Assembly (NCBI RefSeq): GCF_030065535.1
Contig: NZ_JASJND010000004.1
Location: 248,001 to 312,000, forward strand
Reading direction: 5' to 3'
Origin: Microbacterium dauci
GTDB taxonomy: Bacteria > Actinomycetota > Actinomycetes > Actinomycetales > Microbacteriaceae
Length of the DNA stretch: 64,000 nucleotides
Numbering within the stretch: position 1 is the first letter of the stretch; each line of letters begins with the position of its first letter. The position numbers and the translations under genes are program-made. Shown piece after piece: positions 6,313 to 58,486 of this stretch. The notes under the pieces are model-generated. The model was not told the DNA's origin, ran no database searches, and saw only the letters and a program-made list of their open reading frames with translations.

Positions 6313-7050
6313 GTGGGACTACTTGACAGCTTCGAGAAGGGGATCGAGCGCGCCGTGAACGGTGCGTTCGCGAAGACCTTCCGCAGCGGCGTGCAGCCCG
6401 TCGAGATCGCTTCCGCACTGCGCAGCGAGCTTGACGCGAAGGCTGCCGTCGTCTCTCGCGACCGCATCCTCGTCCCGAACACCCTCGAGGTGCGGCTCGC
6501 CGCCGCCGACCATGAGCGCATGCAGGCCATCGGATCGGCGCTGGACGACGAGCTCCGCCAGCTGGTCGAGCGGCACGCCAAGGACCAGAACTACAGCTTC
6601 GCGGGCCCCATCTCGATCCGCCTCGTCACCGACGAGAAGCTCTCGACCGGCACAGTGCGCGTCAACTCGCGCTCCGCGGCCACCGCCGAGGACGTGTCGT
6701 GGCAGGGCGTCGTCGAGATCGACGGCACGCGGCATCCGCTCACCAAGAGCCGCACGGTCATCGGTCGCGGGTCGGATGCCGACATCACGATCCCCGACGC
6801 GGGCACGAGCCGCCGCCACGTCGAGATCCTGTGGGACGGCCGCCGGGCGATGGTCCGCGACCTCGGGTCGACCAACGGCACGCAGCTGAACGGCCAGAAG
6901 GTGAGCGAGGCCGCCCTCGAACCGGATGGCGTCGTGACGATCGGCCGCACCCGCATCACCTTCCGCGTCGTCGCCCAGGCGCCGCGCATCCCCTCCCGCC
7001 CCGCCGATGACGACGCGACGCGGATGTTCGACCTCGGAGGCTCGGCGTGA
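6313..7050 (+). CDS. fhaA: FhaA, DUF3662 and FHA domain protein
   Basis: The 245-residue protein has an N-terminal DUF3662 domain (GLLDSFEKGIERAVNGAFAK onward, about 1-110). Its C-terminal FHA domain runs from about 147 to 235, with GRGSDADITI, SRRHVEI and DLGSTNGT forming the phosphothreonine-binding loops. In Mycobacterium FhaA binds phosphorylated partners of PknB, including the pseudokinase domain of MviN, and modulates peptidoglycan synthesis. It is the first gene of a seven-gene operon. Its stop overlaps the GTG of fhaB by four bases, implying translational coupling. Confidence 0.95.
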   Translation: MGLLDSFEKGIERAVNGAFAKTFRSGVQPVEIASALRSELDAKAAVVSRDRILVPNTLEVRLAAADHERMQAIGSALDDELRQLVERHAKDQNYSFAGPISIRLVTDEKLSTGTVRVNSRSAATAEDVSWQGVVEIDGTRHPLTKSRTVIGRGSDADITIPDAGTSRRHVEILWDGRRAMVRDLGSTNGTQLNGQKVSEAALEPDGVVTIGRTRITFRVVAQAPRIPSRPADDDATRMFDLGGSA

Positions 7051-52495: not shown

Positions 52496-52732
52496 GTGAT
52501 CTTCTCCTTGGTTCGCGCCGGAGGCGTGCGACCCGCAGGAAACGCCCCCCGACGGGCGGCAACGATACCGGGAGCGACATCCGATCCCCATCCGCTAGGC
52601 ACGGCGTGCGCTGGTCGCTACACTGCGTCGATCCGGCATCGCTGCGGCATCCGGTGCCGCAGATGCGCACTCGTAAGCCGACGTTCACCGAACCGCCACC
52701 CCGAGGTCACGATCGATTGTGACCATGGCGGC

Positions 52733-53710
52733 GTGCCGAAACCGATCGTGACCGTCATCCTCCCCGCGAAGGATGCCGCTCCGTTCATCGCCACGACCCT
52801 CATGACCCTCGCGCGACAGTTCGAGGACACCTCGCGGCTCCGACTGATCGCGATCGACGACGGCTCGACGGACGAGACCGGCGCGCAGATGCTGCACTAC
52901 GGCGAGCAGTTCGATCACGTCCAGGTGATCGCGAACCCCGTCCCCAAGGGGCTCGCAGCGGCGCGCAATCAGGGGCTCGATCGCGTCGACACCGAATACT
53001 TCTGCTTCGTCGACGGCGACGACTGGATGCAGCCGGGACGGCTGGACGCGCTCGTCGAGACGATGCGGCAGCTGGAATGCGACTTCGTGCGCACCGACCA
53101 CCTGACGGTCACCGACACGCAGCGCAAGATCATCCGCGCCCCGCACCCGTGGCGTGGCGTCGTCGCGCCGGCGCGCGATGCGATCCTCCCGATCGACGAC
53201 AACTCGATGGTCGACTACCCGTATGCGTGGGCCGGTATGTTCCACCGCCGGATGCTCGACGACGGTCTCGTCGAGTTCCCGACCGGGTTGCACACGGCCG
53301 AGGATCGACCCTGGATCTGGCGCCTTCACCTCTCTGACGCGTCGTTCGCCGTCGTCGACGCACCGTCGATCCTGTACCGCCGCGGTGTCTCCACCTCGCT
53401 CACCCAGGTGTTCGATCGGCGACAGCTCGACTTCATCCCGGCGTTCGCGCAGGCCTACGAGCTGGTCGACGCCGATCGTGACGCCGACCTGTATCGCCCC
53501 AAGATCGTCGCGACGATCCTCGCGATCTGCTCCCACCACCTCTTCCGGGCGCGGGCAATGGCGGCGCCGCATCGAGCGGAGCTGCGCACCGGACTGCGAG
53601 AACTTCTCCGTCCGATCCCGGACGACGAGCTCGACGGTGCGATCTCGCGACTCTCGGATCGGCGTCGACGCCTGCTCGCCCGCACGGTGCGAGAGGTGCG
53701 GCGGGCATGA
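52733..53710 (+). CDS. Family 2 glycosyltransferase
   Basis: A 325-residue GT-A glycosyltransferase opening the nonulosonate cluster. VTVILPAKDAAPFIATTLMTL and LIAIDDGSTDETG form the nucleotide-sugar site, and FCFVDGDDWMQPGRL the DxD-type metal motif. No membrane helix is seen. It probably adds a sugar to a lipid-linked or wall polymer acceptor. The GTG at 52733 begins PKPIVTVILP; the upstream frame lacks homology. Its stop overlaps the next gene as ATGA. Confidence 0.88.
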   Translation: MPKPIVTVILPAKDAAPFIATTLMTLARQFEDTSRLRLIAIDDGSTDETGAQMLHYGEQFDHVQVIANPVPKGLAAARNQGLDRVDTEYFCFVDGDDWMQPGRLDALVETMRQLECDFVRTDHLTVTDTQRKIIRAPHPWRGVVAPARDAILPIDDNSMVDYPYAWAGMFHRRMLDDGLVEFPTGLHTAEDRPWIWRLHLSDASFAVVDAPSILYRRGVSTSLTQVFDRRQLDFIPAFAQAYELVDADRDADLYRPKIVATILAICSHHLFRARAMAAPHRAELRTGLRELLRPIPDDELDGAISRLSDRRRRLLARTVREVRRA

Positions 53711-55056
53711 CGCAGGTCTTCGCCCCGCACTCGACGTTCGGGCTCATGACCGTGGTGGCCGCCATCGACGCGGGGGTGATCCCCCCGACGAAGGGCGAGC
53801 GCATCCTGTTGGCCGTGAACTCGGCCGTCGTGCCTGAAGCCAGCACCGGTATCGACGAGATCCCGCACCTGCGGGGCTTGCTCCGACGCTTCGACCGCGT
53901 CGAGTCCCTCAACGAGCTCATCGCGCCGACCCACCCGACGCAGTGGGCGCCGTCGCCCGAAGACCTCGTGGTCGTCGAACGGCTGCTGCGACGCACCTGG
54001 GGGCTCGGCGCCGGGCCGGTGCAGCTGTACGTGCAGAGTCCGCAGGTCGCACCCGCCCGCACCCTCGCGGCGATGTTCGGCTCCGCCGAGCTGGGCGTCA
54101 TCGGCGATGGACTGATGACCTATGCGCCGATGCGCGTCGCACTCCCCGCCTCGATGCTGTCGCGGATGACGAGCGTCATCGCCGCCGACATCGTCCCCGG
54201 CGTCGCACCGCTCGTGCTCTCGGAGCGCGGCGTTCCGTTCCGCGCGGTCCCCGTCGAGGGCATGCGGGCCGTGCTCGACGAGGTCGAGGCCGAGGTGGTC
54301 GACGCGCGACTCGCGCGACTCACACGGACCTCCCCGCGCACGGTGCTCGTGCTCGGGCAGTATCTCGCTGCGCTCGGACTGGTGTCCGCGGCCGAGGAAG
54401 CGGCGATGCAGCGCGACATGGTCGACGCCGCCCTCGCCTGGTCGCCGGAGCGGATCGTCTTCAAGCCTCATCCTTCGGCGCCGCCCGTCGCCGCCGACGC
54501 CGTGGTGGCCCGCGCACGCGAGCTCGACCTCGAGGTCGACGTCTACTCCGGTGACGTCCCCGCGGAGCTGGTCGCCCGGCGGCTCGACCCGGTCGGCGTC
54601 GTTGCGGGCTTCTCCACCGCGCTGCCCACGGTGCACGCGCTCGCCGCGACCCCGATCGCCGCGGTCGGCACCGAGACCCTCCTCGCGCGGTTCCGTCCGT
54701 ACGAGAACAGCAACCGCATGGCCGTGACGATCGTCGACGCGATGACCCGAGCGGATGCCGCGACCCCGATGCGCGATCTGGTGTGCGCGGTCGGCTACGC
54801 GATGCAGCCCGAGATCATGCGGCATCTGCGTCCGCGCGCGGTCGAGGTCATCGGTGCGATGAGCGCCGCGGACCGCGAGCGGTACGTCGGATCGCGCCGA
54901 CTGACCGAGCTGCACCTGCCGGGTGCGGACGGCTCCCTCGGCGCGCGGCTGCGGTTCGCACCGGCATCCGTCAGCCGACTCGAACAGGCGCGACTCGTCG
55001 CCCGCGGCGCGCGCCGTCGGGCGGGTCGGGCATGGAAGGAATTGAAGGGCCGATGA
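53707..55056 (+). CDS. Polysialyltransferase-family glycosyltransferase
   Basis: A 449-residue protein with the three motifs of bacterial polysialyltransferases and related GT-B enzymes: GDGLMTY at 133-139 (D/E-D/E-G type), KPHPSAPP with His255-Pro256, and GFSTALPTVHAL with Ser303-Thr304 (SS-type). These bind the CMP-sugar and act in catalysis. The neighbouring CMP-sugar synthetase makes the donor, so it probably transfers or polymerises a nonulosonic acid. It overlaps the genes on both sides by ATGA. Confidence 0.82.
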   Translation: MTQVFAPHSTFGLMTVVAAIDAGVIPPTKGERILLAVNSAVVPEASTGIDEIPHLRGLLRRFDRVESLNELIAPTHPTQWAPSPEDLVVVERLLRRTWGLGAGPVQLYVQSPQVAPARTLAAMFGSAELGVIGDGLMTYAPMRVALPASMLSRMTSVIAADIVPGVAPLVLSERGVPFRAVPVEGMRAVLDEVEAEVVDARLARLTRTSPRTVLVLGQYLAALGLVSAAEEAAMQRDMVDAALAWSPERIVFKPHPSAPPVAADAVVARARELDLEVDVYSGDVPAELVARRLDPVGVVAGFSTALPTVHALAATPIAAVGTETLLARFRPYENSNRMAVTIVDAMTRADAATPMRDLVCAVGYAMQPEIMRHLRPRAVEVIGAMSAADRERYVGSRRLTELHLPGADGSLGARLRFAPASVSRLEQARLVARGARRRAGRAWKELKGR

Positions 55057-56201
55057 GCAGCATCGACGTCGTCGCCGTGATCCCCGCCCGCGGCGGATCG
55101 AAGGGCGTGCCGCGCAAGAACGTCCGACGGGTGGGCGGTGTACCGCTCATCGCTCGCGCCGTTCAGGCGGCCAGCGCCGCGGCATCCGTCGATCTCGTCG
55201 TCGTCTCGACGGACGACGCCGACATCGCCGCAGCCGCGACGGCCGCCGGCGCCCGCATCGTGACGCGACCGGCCGACCTCGCCGGCGACACCGCGTCGTC
55301 GGAGTCCGCCCTTCTCCACGCCCTCGAGAGGCTCGACGCCGACGGGATCAGCCCGGAGGTGCTCGTGTTCCTGCAGGCCACGTCGCCGTTCATCCCGAGC
55401 GAGGGCATCGACGAGGCGGTCGACGCCGTCCGCGGCGAGTACGACTCGGCCTTCTCTGCGGTCGAGACCTACGGCTTCCTCTGGCAGCGCGGGGCCGAGA
55501 CGGCGACGGGCATCAACCACGAGGCATCCCATCGTCCCCGGCGGCAGGACCGCGAGCCGCACTACCTCGAGACCGGGGCGTTCTATGCGATGGATGCCGC
55601 CGGCTTCCGCCGTGCCGGGCACCGCTTCTTCGGGCGCACCGCGATCATCGAGGTGCCCGAGCGCACGGCGATCGAGATCGACGACAAGCATCAGCTGAAG
55701 CTCGCCCGGGCGCTGGCTCCGCTCGTGTCGCCGGCCGAGAAGATCGACGTCGACGCGGTCGTCACCGACTTCGACGGCGTGCACACCGACGACACCGCGC
55801 GGGTCGACGTCGACGGCCGCGAATCCGTGCGGGTGAGCCGGTCGGACGGGATGGGCGTCTCGCTGCTGCGGCGGGCGGGTGTGCCGGTGTTCATCCTGTC
55901 GAGCGAGACGAACCCGGTCGTGCGCGCGCGAGCCGAGAAGCTGCAGGTGCCGGTCGTGCACGGGGTCGCCGACAAGGCGACGGTGCTGCGGGAGTGGGCG
56001 GAGCGCGAGGGCGTCGCGCTCGAGCGCATCGCGTACCTCGGCAACGACGTCAACGACCTGCCCGCGTTCGCGCTCGTCGGCTGGCCGATCGCGACCGCCG
56101 ACGCGCACCCGACGGTCCGCGCGGCGGCCCGAGTCGTCCTCGGTCGACGCGGCGGCGACGGTGCGGTGCGCGAACTCGCCGACCGGGTGTTGCAGGACTG
56201 A
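55053..56201 (+). CDS. CMP-nonulosonate synthetase fused to a HAD phosphatase
   Basis: A 382-residue two-domain enzyme. Residues 1-225 form an acylneuraminate/Kdn cytidylyltransferase: IPARGGSKGVPRKNVRRVGG (CTP loop), LQATSPF, HYLETGAFYAMD and IEIDDKHQLKLA. Residues 230-382 form a HAD phosphatase of KdsC type with DFDGVHTDD (Asp239, Asp241), a lysine in ADKATVL and GNDVNDLPAF. The same fusion occurs in Bacteroides Kdn enzymes, where the HAD part removes the 9-phosphate. It starts within an ATGA overlap. Confidence 0.88.
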   Translation: MSSIDVVAVIPARGGSKGVPRKNVRRVGGVPLIARAVQAASAAASVDLVVVSTDDADIAAAATAAGARIVTRPADLAGDTASSESALLHALERLDADGISPEVLVFLQATSPFIPSEGIDEAVDAVRGEYDSAFSAVETYGFLWQRGAETATGINHEASHRPRRQDREPHYLETGAFYAMDAAGFRRAGHRFFGRTAIIEVPERTAIEIDDKHQLKLARALAPLVSPAEKIDVDAVVTDFDGVHTDDTARVDVDGRESVRVSRSDGMGVSLLRRAGVPVFILSSETNPVVRARAEKLQVPVVHGVADKATVLREWAEREGVALERIAYLGNDVNDLPAFALVGWPIATADAHPTVRAAARVVLGRRGGDGAVRELADRVLQD

Positions 56202-56318
56202 CAGCCGACGGTCCGGCGGCGGCCACCCCCGGTTCAACGCTCGTTCATCACCCCGGCGGACGCTGAGGAAGCACGAGCAGTCCCCGGTGCAGAAGGCCGG
56301 GTTTCGAGGAGGACCACC

Positions 56319-57191
56319 ATGACCGTCACCATCGGATCGAACGTCTTGGGCGGCGGCAAGCCCGTCTATGTGATCGGCGAGATCGGCCTCAACCACAACG
56401 GCGACGTCGACATCGCCAAGAAGCTCATCGACGTCGCGGCTCGCGCCGGTGCGAACGCGGTGAAGTTCCAGAAGCGCACCCCCGAGATCGCGACGCCCGC
56501 GCACATGCGCGACGTGCAGCGCGAGACGCCCTGGGGCACCATGAGCTACCTCGACTACCGGTACCGCGTCGAGTTCGACCGCGACCAGTACATCGAGATC
56601 GGCGACCACGCCACGATGCTCGGCCTCGACTGGTTCGCCTCCCCCTGGGACGTGCCGAGCGTCGACTTCCTCGAAGACCTGAACGTGGTCGCCCACAAGG
56701 TGGCATCCGCCAGCCTCACCGACATCGAGCTGCTCGAGGCGCTCCGCGCGACCGGCAAGCCCGTCATCCTCTCCACCGGCATGTCGACGATCGAGCAGAT
56801 CGACCGCGCGCTCGAGGTGCTCGGCACCGACCAGACCGTGCTCATGCACGCCACCTCGACGTACCCGATGGAGCCCGACGAGGCGAACCTCAAGGTCATC
56901 GGCACGCTCCGCGACCGCTACGCCGGCATCCCCGTCGGCTACTCGGGCCACGAGCGCGGCCTGCAGATCTCGCTCGCGGCCGTCGCACTCGGCGCCGTCG
57001 CCGTGGAGCGTCACATCACGCTCGACCGCACCATGTGGGGCTCCGACCAGGCGGCATCCCTCGAGCCCACCGGACTCGAGCACCTCGTCCGCGACATCCG
57101 CGTCATCGAGACGGCGCTCGGCGACGGCGTGAAGCGCGTCTTCGACGGCGAGCTCGCACCGATGGCGAAGCTGCGTCGCGTCCCGGCATGA
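56319..57191 (+). CDS. NeuB-family nonulosonic acid synthase, short form
   Basis: Condenses phosphoenolpyruvate with a six-carbon sugar to make a nonulosonic acid or its 9-phosphate. The 290-residue TIM barrel has IGEIGLNHNGDVDIAKKL (Glu21, His26), AVKFQKRTPE, FASPWDVPSVDFLE, HKVASASLTD, STGMSTIEQI and IPVGYSGHERG. The C-terminal SAF (antifreeze-like) domain of typical sialic acid synthases, normally making about 340 residues, is missing. GAGGAGGACC precedes the ATG. A 117-base gap separates it from the synthetase; it overlaps the next gene by ATGA. Confidence 0.9.
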   Translation: MTVTIGSNVLGGGKPVYVIGEIGLNHNGDVDIAKKLIDVAARAGANAVKFQKRTPEIATPAHMRDVQRETPWGTMSYLDYRYRVEFDRDQYIEIGDHATMLGLDWFASPWDVPSVDFLEDLNVVAHKVASASLTDIELLEALRATGKPVILSTGMSTIEQIDRALEVLGTDQTVLMHATSTYPMEPDEANLKVIGTLRDRYAGIPVGYSGHERGLQISLAAVALGAVAVERHITLDRTMWGSDQAASLEPTGLEHLVRDIRVIETALGDGVKRVFDGELAPMAKLRRVPA

Positions 57192-58486
57192 CCTTCCGGG
57201 CAGAGCGTGCGCCGCGACTGCGTGTCGTGGTGATCGCCGACGCCGACTCGTTCGTGAAGTGGGGCACCCACCTCGTCGACGCGGTGCCCGGCGCGAGCCG
57301 GCACCTGCTGCTGGTGCGCACGCCGTTGACCGTGAACGACACCCAGCTGGATGCCGCGCTGACCGACACCACGTTCGGTGGCGATCGGGTCACGCGTGTC
57401 GACTTCGACGAGGTGCCGTCGTGGCTCACACACGATCGTCCCGACATCGTGGTGCTCGCCGGTCGGGGACCGTTCGTGCGGTTGCTCGGCACGCAGATCG
57501 ACCGTGTGCACCCGCGGCCGGTCGTCGTCGCGGGACTCCCCGGCATCTCGATCCCGGCGCTCCGCGGTGCTGCGCAGTACCGGAAGTACGCGGATCTGTT
57601 CGTCGTGCATTCGCACCGTGAGGTGCGCGCATTCCGAGAGCTGGGCGCCACGTTGGGCATCGCAACCGAGCCCGCGCTGGCGACCCTGCCGTTCGCCCGA
57701 CGGCGTTCCGTCGCGGGCGGCACCGACCTCGTGTTCGCGGCGCAGGCGCTCATTCCGCGGTCGACCGAGGAGCGCATGCGGATGGCCGACATCCTGCGGG
57801 ATGCCGCGCTCGCCGACCCGACCCGCCGTGTCGTCGTCAAGCTCCGAGCTCGCGCCGGTGAGGCGCAGACGCACGAGGAACGGGTCTCGCTCGAAACGCT
57901 CCTGCGGGACCGACCCGACAACCTCGTGTTCTCGTACGAGCCGATGTCGCAGGCGCTCGAGACCGCAGAGGGGCTCGTCACCGTGAGCTCCACCGCCGCG
58001 ATCGAGGCGATCGCCGCCGGCATCCCGGTCATCGCACTCGACGAGTTCGGCGTCTCGAAAGACAACATCAACACGGTGTTCGCGCGTAGCGGGCTGCTCG
58101 GCACCGCGGCCGACGTCGCGGAGCGCCAGTTCCGGCACCCCAATGCGGTGTGGATGCGTGACAACTATTTCCACGACCAGGCGGATGCCACATGGTGGGC
58201 GCGTGCGCAGCGACTGGTCGCGCGCCGCCGCGCTGGCGAGCTCGCCGCGAGGCGTGTGCCCACGCCGCGCGGCGGTGCGCTGCACGCGGCCTGGCACCGG
58301 CGGAGCGTGCTCGGCGACGCCGACCGCACCGTGTCGGGTGCGATCGCGGTGCGCGTCGGAGGTCCGATCGTGCGCGCGCTCGTCGCACTCCAGCGGCTAC
58401 GCCGCCCGCGGGTCGGGAGCTGGCGGGGTGCCGACGACTTCACCCTGACGCCGTCCCGCAACGCGAACCCCGTGCCGCTGCGCTGA
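57188..58486 (+). CDS. Putative glycosyltransferase, DUF6716-type
   Basis: A 432-residue protein with GT-B-like organisation: N-terminal LRVVVIADADSFVKWGTHLVDAV, a middle segment VVAGLPGISIPALRGAAQYRKYADLFVVHS, and SLVTVSSTAAIEAIAAGIPVIALDEFG, whose SSTAAIEA loop resembles the donor site of CMP-sugar-using transferases. It matches DUF6716 putative glycosyltransferases, in my judgement. It overlaps neuB by ATGA, so the two are coupled. The last five codons are duplicated downstream. Confidence 0.75.
   Translation: MTFRAERAPRLRVVVIADADSFVKWGTHLVDAVPGASRHLLLVRTPLTVNDTQLDAALTDTTFGGDRVTRVDFDEVPSWLTHDRPDIVVLAGRGPFVRLLGTQIDRVHPRPVVVAGLPGISIPALRGAAQYRKYADLFVVHSHREVRAFRELGATLGIATEPALATLPFARRRSVAGGTDLVFAAQALIPRSTEERMRMADILRDAALADPTRRVVVKLRARAGEAQTHEERVSLETLLRDRPDNLVFSYEPMSQALETAEGLVTVSSTAAIEAIAAGIPVIALDEFGVSKDNINTVFARSGLLGTAADVAERQFRHPNAVWMRDNYFHDQADATWWARAQRLVARRRAGELAARRVPTPRGGALHAAWHRRSVLGDADRTVSGAIAVRVGGPIVRALVALQRLRRPRVGSWRGADDFTLTPSRNANPVPLR

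Follow-up and report, generated by a model that had tools for sequence, protein, structure and literature searches.

We propose, at a probability of roughly three in four, that a compact five-gene cluster of Microbacterium dauci is controlled by PhoP and makes a phosphate-free, Kdn-containing glycopolymer of the cell wall, i.e., a teichulosonic acid. New here are the triple 11-nt PHO-box repeats found at both promoters of this cluster. It lies in the stretch of 64,000 nucleotides that was analyzed (hereinafter the window), and its five open reading frames proved intact, uniformly on the plus strand and of the extent originally predicted: a GT2 glycosyltransferase with a GTG start (52733-53710; PF00535, E 2.5e-26); a polysialyltransferase-like GT-B enzyme (PST; 53707-55056; PF07388, E 2.5e-17), which is a candidate Kdn transferase; a CMP-nonulosonate synthetase (approximately residues 1-228) fused to a HAD domain of the KdsC/Kdn-9-P-phosphatase type (approximately residues 229-382; together CMP-HAD; 55053-56201; PF02348, E 3.8e-22); a SAF-less NeuB-family synthase, the proposed Kdn-9-phosphate synthase (56319-57191; PF03102, E 1.2e-78); and a DUF6716 protein with a GT-B fold, a proposed glycosyltransferase (57188-58486; PF20471, E 7e-120). 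The tight junctions likewise hold, with ATGA overlaps at 53707, 55053 and 57188, and with 117 bp between CMP-HAD and NeuB as the sole intergenic gap of the cluster. None of the five genes encodes an exporter, flippase or wall ligase.

The two promoter regions share a repeat architecture. Upstream of the GT2 start is a PHO-box-like operator of three 11-nt direct repeats (GTTCACC, CGCCACC and GGTCACG; 52683-52715, plus strand; score 18/21), and the gap between CMP-HAD and NeuB holds a second one (GGCCACC, GTTCAAC and GTTCATC; 56221-56253, plus strand), which with 19/21 is the best of the window; on both strands of the window, these two are the only sites scoring at least 18. Both the repeat score and the pattern used on the genome were devised after the window's repeats had been noticed, and were built on the Streptomyces consensus, whose unit we take to be GKTCAYY. 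With the middle unit of that pattern relaxed, the site at 52683-52715 is one of two 1-mismatch matches genome-wide; pstS and phoU of the same genome have PHO-type boxes too. Across the Microbacteriaceae, 51 of 77 SAF-less clusters score at least 17 at the period of 11, as against 0-2 of the same 77 at periods of 8-10 and 12-15, 0.62% of 5193 background tiles, and none of the 27 SAF-length NeuB hits of the family (under a looser choice of the first gene, the SAF-type loci L131 and L129 score 17 and 16, respectively); 26 of the 77 SAF-less clusters fall below 17. The site in the gap before NeuB recurs, at a score of 17, in two clusters of the same genus (L094 and L120) and in 0 of 74 others. A chance origin of the repeats was considered and put aside in view of the period, strand and tile controls. 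Both promoters of the cluster carry the sequence signature of a predicted phosphate-starvation control by PhoP.

The NeuB is indeed short, as originally predicted: its 290 residues match PF03102, and the C-terminal SAF domain is missing. We entertained a frameshift as the cause; this is refuted because the 77 NeuB genes of the family, the window's included, all stop no more than 20 residues from one common end point on the profile. The window's version is 65% identical to three SAF-less NeuB rows from Streptomyces, and scores 258.2 bits against the N-acetylneuraminate synthase equivalog TIGR03569, below its cut-off of 399.65. Arginine 314 of the SAF domain, which positions ManNAc, is described as required for the activity of the meningococcal NeuB with ManNAc (PMC6795526), and this residue is absent from the window's NeuB, which stops before that domain. 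Its best sequence match in the PDB, 6ncs, likewise has 290 residues and no room for a SAF domain; as the depositors of this SAF-less chain named it N-acetylneuraminic acid synthetase, the absence of SAF alone is no proof of Kdn.

The predicted fusion of a CMP-sugar synthetase to a KdsC-like phosphatase was borne out by a PF02348 match and a KdsC-type C-terminal domain in a single reading frame. The HAD domain scores 101.6 bits with the Kdn-9-P phosphatase model NF058599, under its curated cut-off of 180, and lower (86.7 bits) with the KdsC model NF007019. By identity it is equally close to KdsC 1j8d, presumably from Haemophilus (37.6%), and to 3e81 (37.2%), which we take to be BT1713, the Kdn-9-P phosphatase of Bacteroides. 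It retains the Glu and Lys that align with E56 and K67 of 3e81, presumably the specificity pair of the Kdn-9-P phosphatase; each of these residues is found in 54 of the 58 other HAD domains of the family and in 80/80 from Streptomyces. The corresponding residues are R and D in 1j8d, and among other PDB entries 4hgq departs from 3e81 at the first position of the pair and 4hgr at both.

On the side of precursor supply, the original prediction had noted that the stretch lacks a UDP-GlcNAc 2-epimerase. This extends to the whole genome (100% complete), which has 0 matches to PF02350 (NeuC/MnaA) and in which no NanE or AGE match was found as a ManNAc source elsewhere; a mannose-6-phosphate isomerase is present. 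An ordinary Neu5Ac capsule was put aside, no ManNAc route having been matched in the genome.

As for the transferases, PST exceeds the cut-off of PF07388 (63.8 versus 23.3 bits), and its structural model best matches the polysialyltransferase structures 5wc6 (Z 17.6) and 5wcn (Z 17.3). All 12 PST rows have the motifs KPHP and [DE]G, and we take DG and HP to be the catalytic motifs of GT38 enzymes. A sequence search of the PDB with PST returned nothing, and one with DUF6716 no more than weak rows from phage baseplates and spikes; the profile comparison of PST with NeuC is weak (0.4%, E 0.17). In some Microbacteriaceae clusters, the synthetase is preceded by a member of a family marked by the motifs VESPLQL, DDG and HRRE, as seen with an upstream-gene finder that returned no gene for 36 of 74 loci; this gene is absent from the window's locus. 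The family drew no usable name in scans against Pfam and NCBIfam, one of which took 10 of its 12 aligned rows, and a PDB sequence search gave one weak methyltransferase row (E 0.0036). Its profile comparison with PST is weak (2.2%, E 0.022) and pairs DDG with DG and PHRRE with PHP; those of DUF6716 with this family (0.7%, E 0.084) and with PST (0.6%, E 0.096) are weak as well.

The closest known counterparts come from Streptomyces, where PST, GT2, DUF6716, the CMP synthetase, HAD and SAF-less NeuB occur together in 77 of 80 named loci, with a gene order compatible with the annotation of SCO4877-4881 in PMC2267785. All of these components of the SCO4873-4882 type are found in the window, a likeness drawn from gene order and annotation, with no S. 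coelicolor-titled record among the 80 loci. SCO4873-SCO4882 is described as a PhoP-controlled teichulosonic-acid cluster, credited to Ostash et al. 2014 (PMC13011467), and the Streptomyces polymer as containing Kdn (PMC11481543). A further source tabulates the SCO4880 counterpart as 'sialic acid synthase', off by one against the inferred order, and reports Pho-activated counterparts of Kdn wall-polymer genes in Planobispora (PMC8269224). Triple PHO repeats are also present at the divergent promoters of the Streptomyces loci (51 of 77), several of which share the weak CGCCAC middle unit with the window. However, in those loci PST-GT2 diverges from DUF6716-CMP-HAD-NeuB, and seven printed loci have the VESPLQL/DDG/HRRE gene after NeuB, whereas the window's five genes are co-directional and without that gene, DUF6716 follows NeuB, and NeuB has a second PHO-like box ahead of it. 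The original prediction mentioned neither the promoter repeats nor this Streptomyces counterpart.

More distant systems offer partial parallels. Bacteroides thetaiotaomicron is reported to make CMP-Kdn in three steps, via the Kdn-9-P synthase BT1714, a Kdn-9-P phosphatase and a CMP-Kdn synthetase (PMC6200933); the course proposed here would share these steps through mannose-6-P and Kdn-9-P, with the E/K pair conserved in the phosphatase, but the phosphatase is fused to the synthetase (HAD 37% identical to 3e81), and Pho-type promoters and polymer transferases are added. The KDN capsule of Serratia marcescens KL1/KL2 is likewise described as a neuB-dependent Kdn polymer with neuA adjacent, and the main text of that study carries no mention of neuC; unlike the window's system, it is a Gram-negative capsule with some Neu5Ac (~1:20), and its NeuB bears an extra sugar-phosphate isomerase/epimerase domain (PMC9000132). 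The meningococcal polysialic acid capsule shares the polysialyltransferase fold (5wcn-type) and the NeuB and NeuA families, yet its NeuB has SAF and uses ManNAc (PMC6795526), for which no route was matched in the window's genome. Among titles and abstract openings, we recognized no literature on Kdn walls in Microbacteriaceae.

Taken together, the want of a ManNAc-route match, the mannose-6-phosphate isomerase, the E/K pair of the HAD domain, the lost SAF arginine and the Streptomyces counterpart support the Kdn assignment of the original prediction; of the two destinations it had offered, the wall has gained support and the capsule has become the less supported one. For substrate, product, PhoP binding and the individual transferase roles, we infer the following plausible course. 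ManA would supply mannose-6-phosphate, from which the SAF-less NeuB would form Kdn-9-phosphate by condensation with PEP; within the fused protein, the HAD domain would release Kdn, and the synthetase domain would convert it with CTP to CMP-Kdn. Kdn would then be transferred by PST and probably DUF6716, while GT2 would contribute a different sugar to the repeat unit. Low phosphate would induce the cluster through its two PHO-box-like promoters, and the polymer would therefore supplement or replace the phosphate-rich teichoic acid that is predicted from the PF04464 teichoic-acid polymerase genes present elsewhere in the genome.

Among the alternatives, NeuB might condense free mannose or another unphosphorylated hexose, with a structural HAD and a product that remains Kdn or closely related to it, which we consider unlikely. 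The fused HAD domain of the animal CMP-sialate synthetase is reportedly suspected of being structural, and in 18 of the 77 SAF-less clusters the locus encodes the synthetase without an HAD, although the NeuB of such clusters can be close to the window's (76% identity for L055, 77% for L065). However, barring the Asn that takes the place of the first Asp of 3e81 in the GDD motif, the catalytic positions of HAD are conserved in the window's protein and in 55-58 of 58 family domains. Further, the Kdn-9-P synthase of Prymnesium is reported to take mannose-6-P as its sole substrate with no recognized partner phosphatase (PMC6200933), and hence a separate phosphatase can suffice. A pseudaminic- or legionaminic-type acid for a capsule or glycoprotein is highly improbable: PseF is the top NCBIfam match of the synthetase domain, but its 128 bits miss the cut-off of 205.7; the dehydratase, aminotransferase and acetyltransferase genes that these routes need are absent from the five-gene cluster; and the Streptomyces counterparts of these families go with Kdn.

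It is also conceivable, though quite unlikely in our estimate, that DUF6716 represents a divergent UDP-GlcNAc 2-epimerase and hence the "missing NeuC", making the product an N-acetylneuraminic-type acid instead of Kdn. In structure comparison, its predicted model (pLDDT 90) appears nearest to UDP-GlcNAc 2-epimerases and then to GT-B transferases (Z 21.6 to 8sxy, 20.4 to the Neisseria epimerase 6vlb and 18.0 to NeuC 5zlr); in 70 of the 77 SAF-less clusters the gene lies close to NeuB in the same orientation, and the name of 6ncs would suit such a product. Against this, PF02350 does not match DUF6716, and the profile comparison with six NeuC-type rows (probability 11%, E 0.0027) covers the C-terminal part alone. 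A check of the catalytic motifs of UDP-GlcNAc 2-epimerases placed GDR, GGE and FHP of the NeuC-type rows on RGP, LPG and AAQ in DUF6716, in the register of predicted strands only; thus, the catalytic acids seem to be missing. Moreover, an epimerase would leave unexplained why the HAD domain has residues of the Kdn-9-P type.

Returning to the PhoP-controlled Kdn wall polymer, a broader proposal, which we hold tentatively and at somewhat short of even odds, is that a PhoP-controlled Kdn module of CMP-HAD, SAF-less NeuB and DUF6716 is widespread in Microbacteriaceae and that, in phosphate starvation, the phosphate-free Kdn polymer it makes takes the place of teichoic acid in the wall. Interchangeable transferases would vary this polymer, either PST with GT2 or the VESPLQL...DDG...HRRE family; the latter and DUF6716 would be two new families of CMP-Kdn transferases. 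If true, this would provide two uncharacterized candidate families of Kdn transferases and tractable enzymes in the form of a SAF-less Kdn-9-P synthase and a one-chain phosphatase and CMP-Kdn synthetase; it also suggests a sequence rule for predicting Kdn walls, i.e., SAF-less NeuB, an E/K HAD, no NeuC and PHO repeats. Regulation of such a wall polymer by phosphate, described for Streptomyces, would then reach many Microbacteriaceae, a family with members in soil, plants and water.

The cluster at 52733-58486 (forward strand) is most readily understood as directing a wall polymer of the teichulosonic-acid type, containing Kdn, made under phosphate starvation and putatively PhoP-controlled, a reading to which we assign a probability of about 0.74. 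The Kdn assignment of the original prediction is thereby both supported and sharpened by four features: a genome without a matched ManNAc route, a residue pair in the HAD domain, the loss of the NeuB SAF domain and the corresponding loci of Streptomyces. All five genes are intact in the open reading frames of the window, and Pfam names their products as a GT2 enzyme, a polysialyltransferase-like protein (PST; PF07388), a cytidylyltransferase with a HAD domain, NeuB (PF03102) and DUF6716 (PF20471). Three of the junctions overlap by ATGA, and the fourth is a gap of 117 bp. Upstream lie a small opposite-strand ORF, lipoprotein-like by eye, and (by Pfam) an aldehyde dehydrogenase and a DUF779 gene; downstream Pfam recognizes a LysR regulator and a sugar transporter, and none of these immediate flanking genes on either side is a wall-polymer gene.

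The absence of a UDP-GlcNAc 2-epimerase, first claimed for the window, extends to the whole host genome (2.88 Mb, 13 contigs, completeness 100): the genome-wide search for neuC or another ManNAc source that had been proposed left PF02350, NanE and AGE all unmatched, and located a mannose-6-phosphate isomerase and a single NeuB. Across Microbacteriaceae, NeuB was found in 108 of 299 genomes searched. The 100 stretches fetched from these (excluding places on short contigs and fragments), together with the window, yield 77 SAF-less NeuBs, 5 long fusions and 27 SAF-length hits, in which certain proteins are counted as two pieces. Of the 75 other genomes with a SAF-less NeuB, 23 have PF02350, yet none of its 25 places there falls within 20 kb of that gene: 11 share its contig (the nearest at about 24 kb, in genome G021) and 14 are on a different one. 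In contrast, among 31 genomes with NeuB of the SAF or fusion type, as judged by frame length where the stretch was unfetched, 14 encode PF02350, directly adjoining NeuB in eight (G057, G067, G104, G111, G112, G204, G206 and G277). Both systems coexist in genome G057, a SAF-type NeuB with PF02350 adjoining and a separate SAF-less Kdn-type cluster (contigs C1 and C8; loci L100 and L063), which makes this genome a useful internal control.

Relative to the meningococcal enzyme 1xuu, the window NeuB keeps the positions of Glu25, Gln55, Lys129, Tyr186, Ser213, His215 and Glu234, replaces Thr110 by Ser, Phe112 by Trp and Asn184 by Ser (the last also seen in the SAF-type relative L063), and stops ahead of Phe288 and Arg314. 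According to one study, Arg314 of the meningococcal SAF domain positions ManNAc, R314A is inactive, and the meningococcal enzyme refuses mannose, whereas the human one accepts mannose-6-phosphate (PMC6795526). NeuBs of five loci (L119 and L123 to L126) bear about 350 additional C-terminal residues, which brings them close in length to a Kdn-making Serratia NeuB fusion (PMC9000132). In two further loci a synthetase and a SAF-less NeuB occupy one open frame devoid of the HAD domain (L075, ORF at 6888; L109, ORF at 1572; both forward strand), a possible CMP-synthetase/NeuB fusion.

At the two positions corresponding to Glu56 and Lys67 of 3e81, which we take to be BT1713, the window HAD domain has the same residues, and 1j8d, a KdsC, carries Arg and Asp; within the stretch aligned, 4hgq departs from 3e81 at the first of the two and 4hgr at both. 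The Glu and the Lys are each conserved in 54 of the family's 58 other HAD domains and in all 80 Streptomyces domains (the best 80 of 538 loci), and the GDD motif begins with Asn instead of Asp in the window and in these same proportions (54/58 and 80/80). Overall sequence identity, 37.2% to 3e81 and 37.6% to 1j8d, does not decide between the two types. The phosphatase is not universal, since 18 of the 77 SAF-less clusters have a synthetase without HAD in the locus; the Prymnesium pathway likewise has no recognized phosphatase (PMC6200933).

What weighs most heavily against the Kdn reading is the epimerase-like fold predicted for DUF6716: its model lies closest to UDP-GlcNAc 2-epimerases (Z 21.6), with GT-B transferases ranking below, and were it an enzyme of that type the cluster would not be a Kdn cluster. 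The best PDB match of the window NeuB, 6ncs, points the same way and against the argument from SAF loss, as it too has just 290 residues and is named N-acetylneuraminic acid synthetase. Nevertheless, we regard an epimerase role as improbable: the conserved columns of DUF6716, lined up by strands and without superposed coordinates, appear to hold no counterpart of the NeuC-type catalytic motifs and favour a transferase, and the profile match to NeuC-type rows is weak (11%, E 0.0027). Of the 77 SAF-less clusters, 70 have DUF6716 close to NeuB and in the same orientation; among the remaining seven, four (L032, L101, L102 and L113) carry it on the opposite strand of the stretch. Its cut-off is passed in 17 of 396 genomes of the phylum; outside the family, 12 of 13 stretches (11 genomes) also hold a synthetase and a SAF-less NeuB ending 14 to 29 residues past the profile end. 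An Escherichia coli control genome also has a match above cut-off.

The PST model (pLDDT 88) best matches the polysialyltransferase 5wc6/5wcn (Z 17.6/17.3), followed by a sialyltransferase (Z 13.8), below which sialyltransferases are interspersed with epimerases and other GT-B enzymes. PST and GT2 accompany the core in only 4 of the 77 family clusters. All four lack the VESPLQ family, a candidate new transferase family encoded upstream on the same strand in 15 of the 77 (members include L087:10009-11037, reverse strand, and L132:11547-12458, forward strand). VESPLQ, DDG and HRRE are invariant in its 12 aligned rows, and neither Pfam nor NCBIfam supplies a name.

The Kdn reading draws further on Streptomyces, whose named genomes were scanned with a Streptomyces HAD fragment. 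Among the best 80 of 538 loci, 77 carry two groups on opposite strands, PST with GT2 in one and DUF6716 with CMP-synthetase, HAD and SAF-less NeuB in the second; the remaining three show just CMP-synthetase, HAD and NeuB, and are probably those starting less than 1 kb ahead of the match (L136, L202 and L209). The window NeuB is 65% identical to its Streptomyces counterparts (three aligned rows) and the PST 37-41% (eight rows). The S. coelicolor genes SCO4877 to SCO4881, annotated as hypothetical, glycosyltransferase, conserved hypothetical, transferase and polysaccharide-biosynthesis protein (PMC2267785), fit this arrangement by order and annotation alone, the 80 loci including no record titled S. 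coelicolor. SCO4881 is termed NeuB in one paper (PMC2367054), and a table in another places the sialic acid synthase at SCO4880, one off from the fitted order (PMC8269224). In seven Streptomyces loci, those with coordinates printed, a VESPLQ homologue follows NeuB, where SCO4882 would stand. Other papers cite SCO4873-4882 as the PhoP-controlled teichulosonic-acid cluster (PMC13011467) and describe galactose and Kdn in the Streptomyces polymer (PMC11481543).

The S. coelicolor PHO box is built from directly repeated 11-nt units, in which GTTCACC is the best-conserved motif (PMC4415409). We scored three such units (maximum 21) against a unit taken from the Streptomyces consensus and written after the repeats were noticed. 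On both strands of the window, only 52683-52715, ahead of the GT2 gene, and 56221-56253, in the gap ahead of NeuB, score at least 18. Upstream of the first gene and at period 11, a score of 17 or more is reached in 51 of the 77 SAF-less clusters and one of 16 or more in 61, as against 0 to 2 clusters at 17 with periods 8-10 and 12-15, three on the other strand, and 0.62% (at least 17) and 1.8% (at least 16) of 5193 background tiles. At 17 or more, the repeat is found with 0 of 27 SAF-length hits and 0 of 5 fusions; a looser choice of first gene gave 17 for L131 and 16 for L129. Of the 77 Streptomyces divergent promoters, from the best 80 of 538 loci, 51 reach at least 17 toward GT2 and one does so toward DUF6716; other periods give 0 to 1, and 0.87% of 5636 tiles score as high; several printed loci share the middle unit CGCCAC with the window. 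A pattern relaxed to admit such middle units, with up to 2 mismatches, finds 10 sites in the host genome, against 2 for the reversed pattern; among the 10 are both cluster sites and one located 80 bp upstream of a phoU gene. The pstS ORF (TIGR00975, E 3.4e-57; 193.7 bits, below the cut-off of 205) is preceded by a score-18 box that begins 88 bp ahead of its first start codon. Two sites in the genome have a single mismatch, the one ahead of the GT2 gene and one (C10:173892-173920; L218, L229) in a region encoding an ABC transporter with a TOBE_2 domain.

Host contig C6 encodes two PF04464 teichoic-acid polymerases above cut-off and a third match below it. In that region a PHO-like repeat (C6:17163-17191; L220, L227) precedes an ABC-transporter ORF by 138 bp and may link wall-polymer export to phosphate. 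In some bacteria the phosphate-free teichuronic acid replaces teichoic acid under starvation (PMC4415409), and since the host has PF04464 polymerases a comparable switch is possible. While this kind of cluster was already known, the regulatory and family-wide evidence is new.
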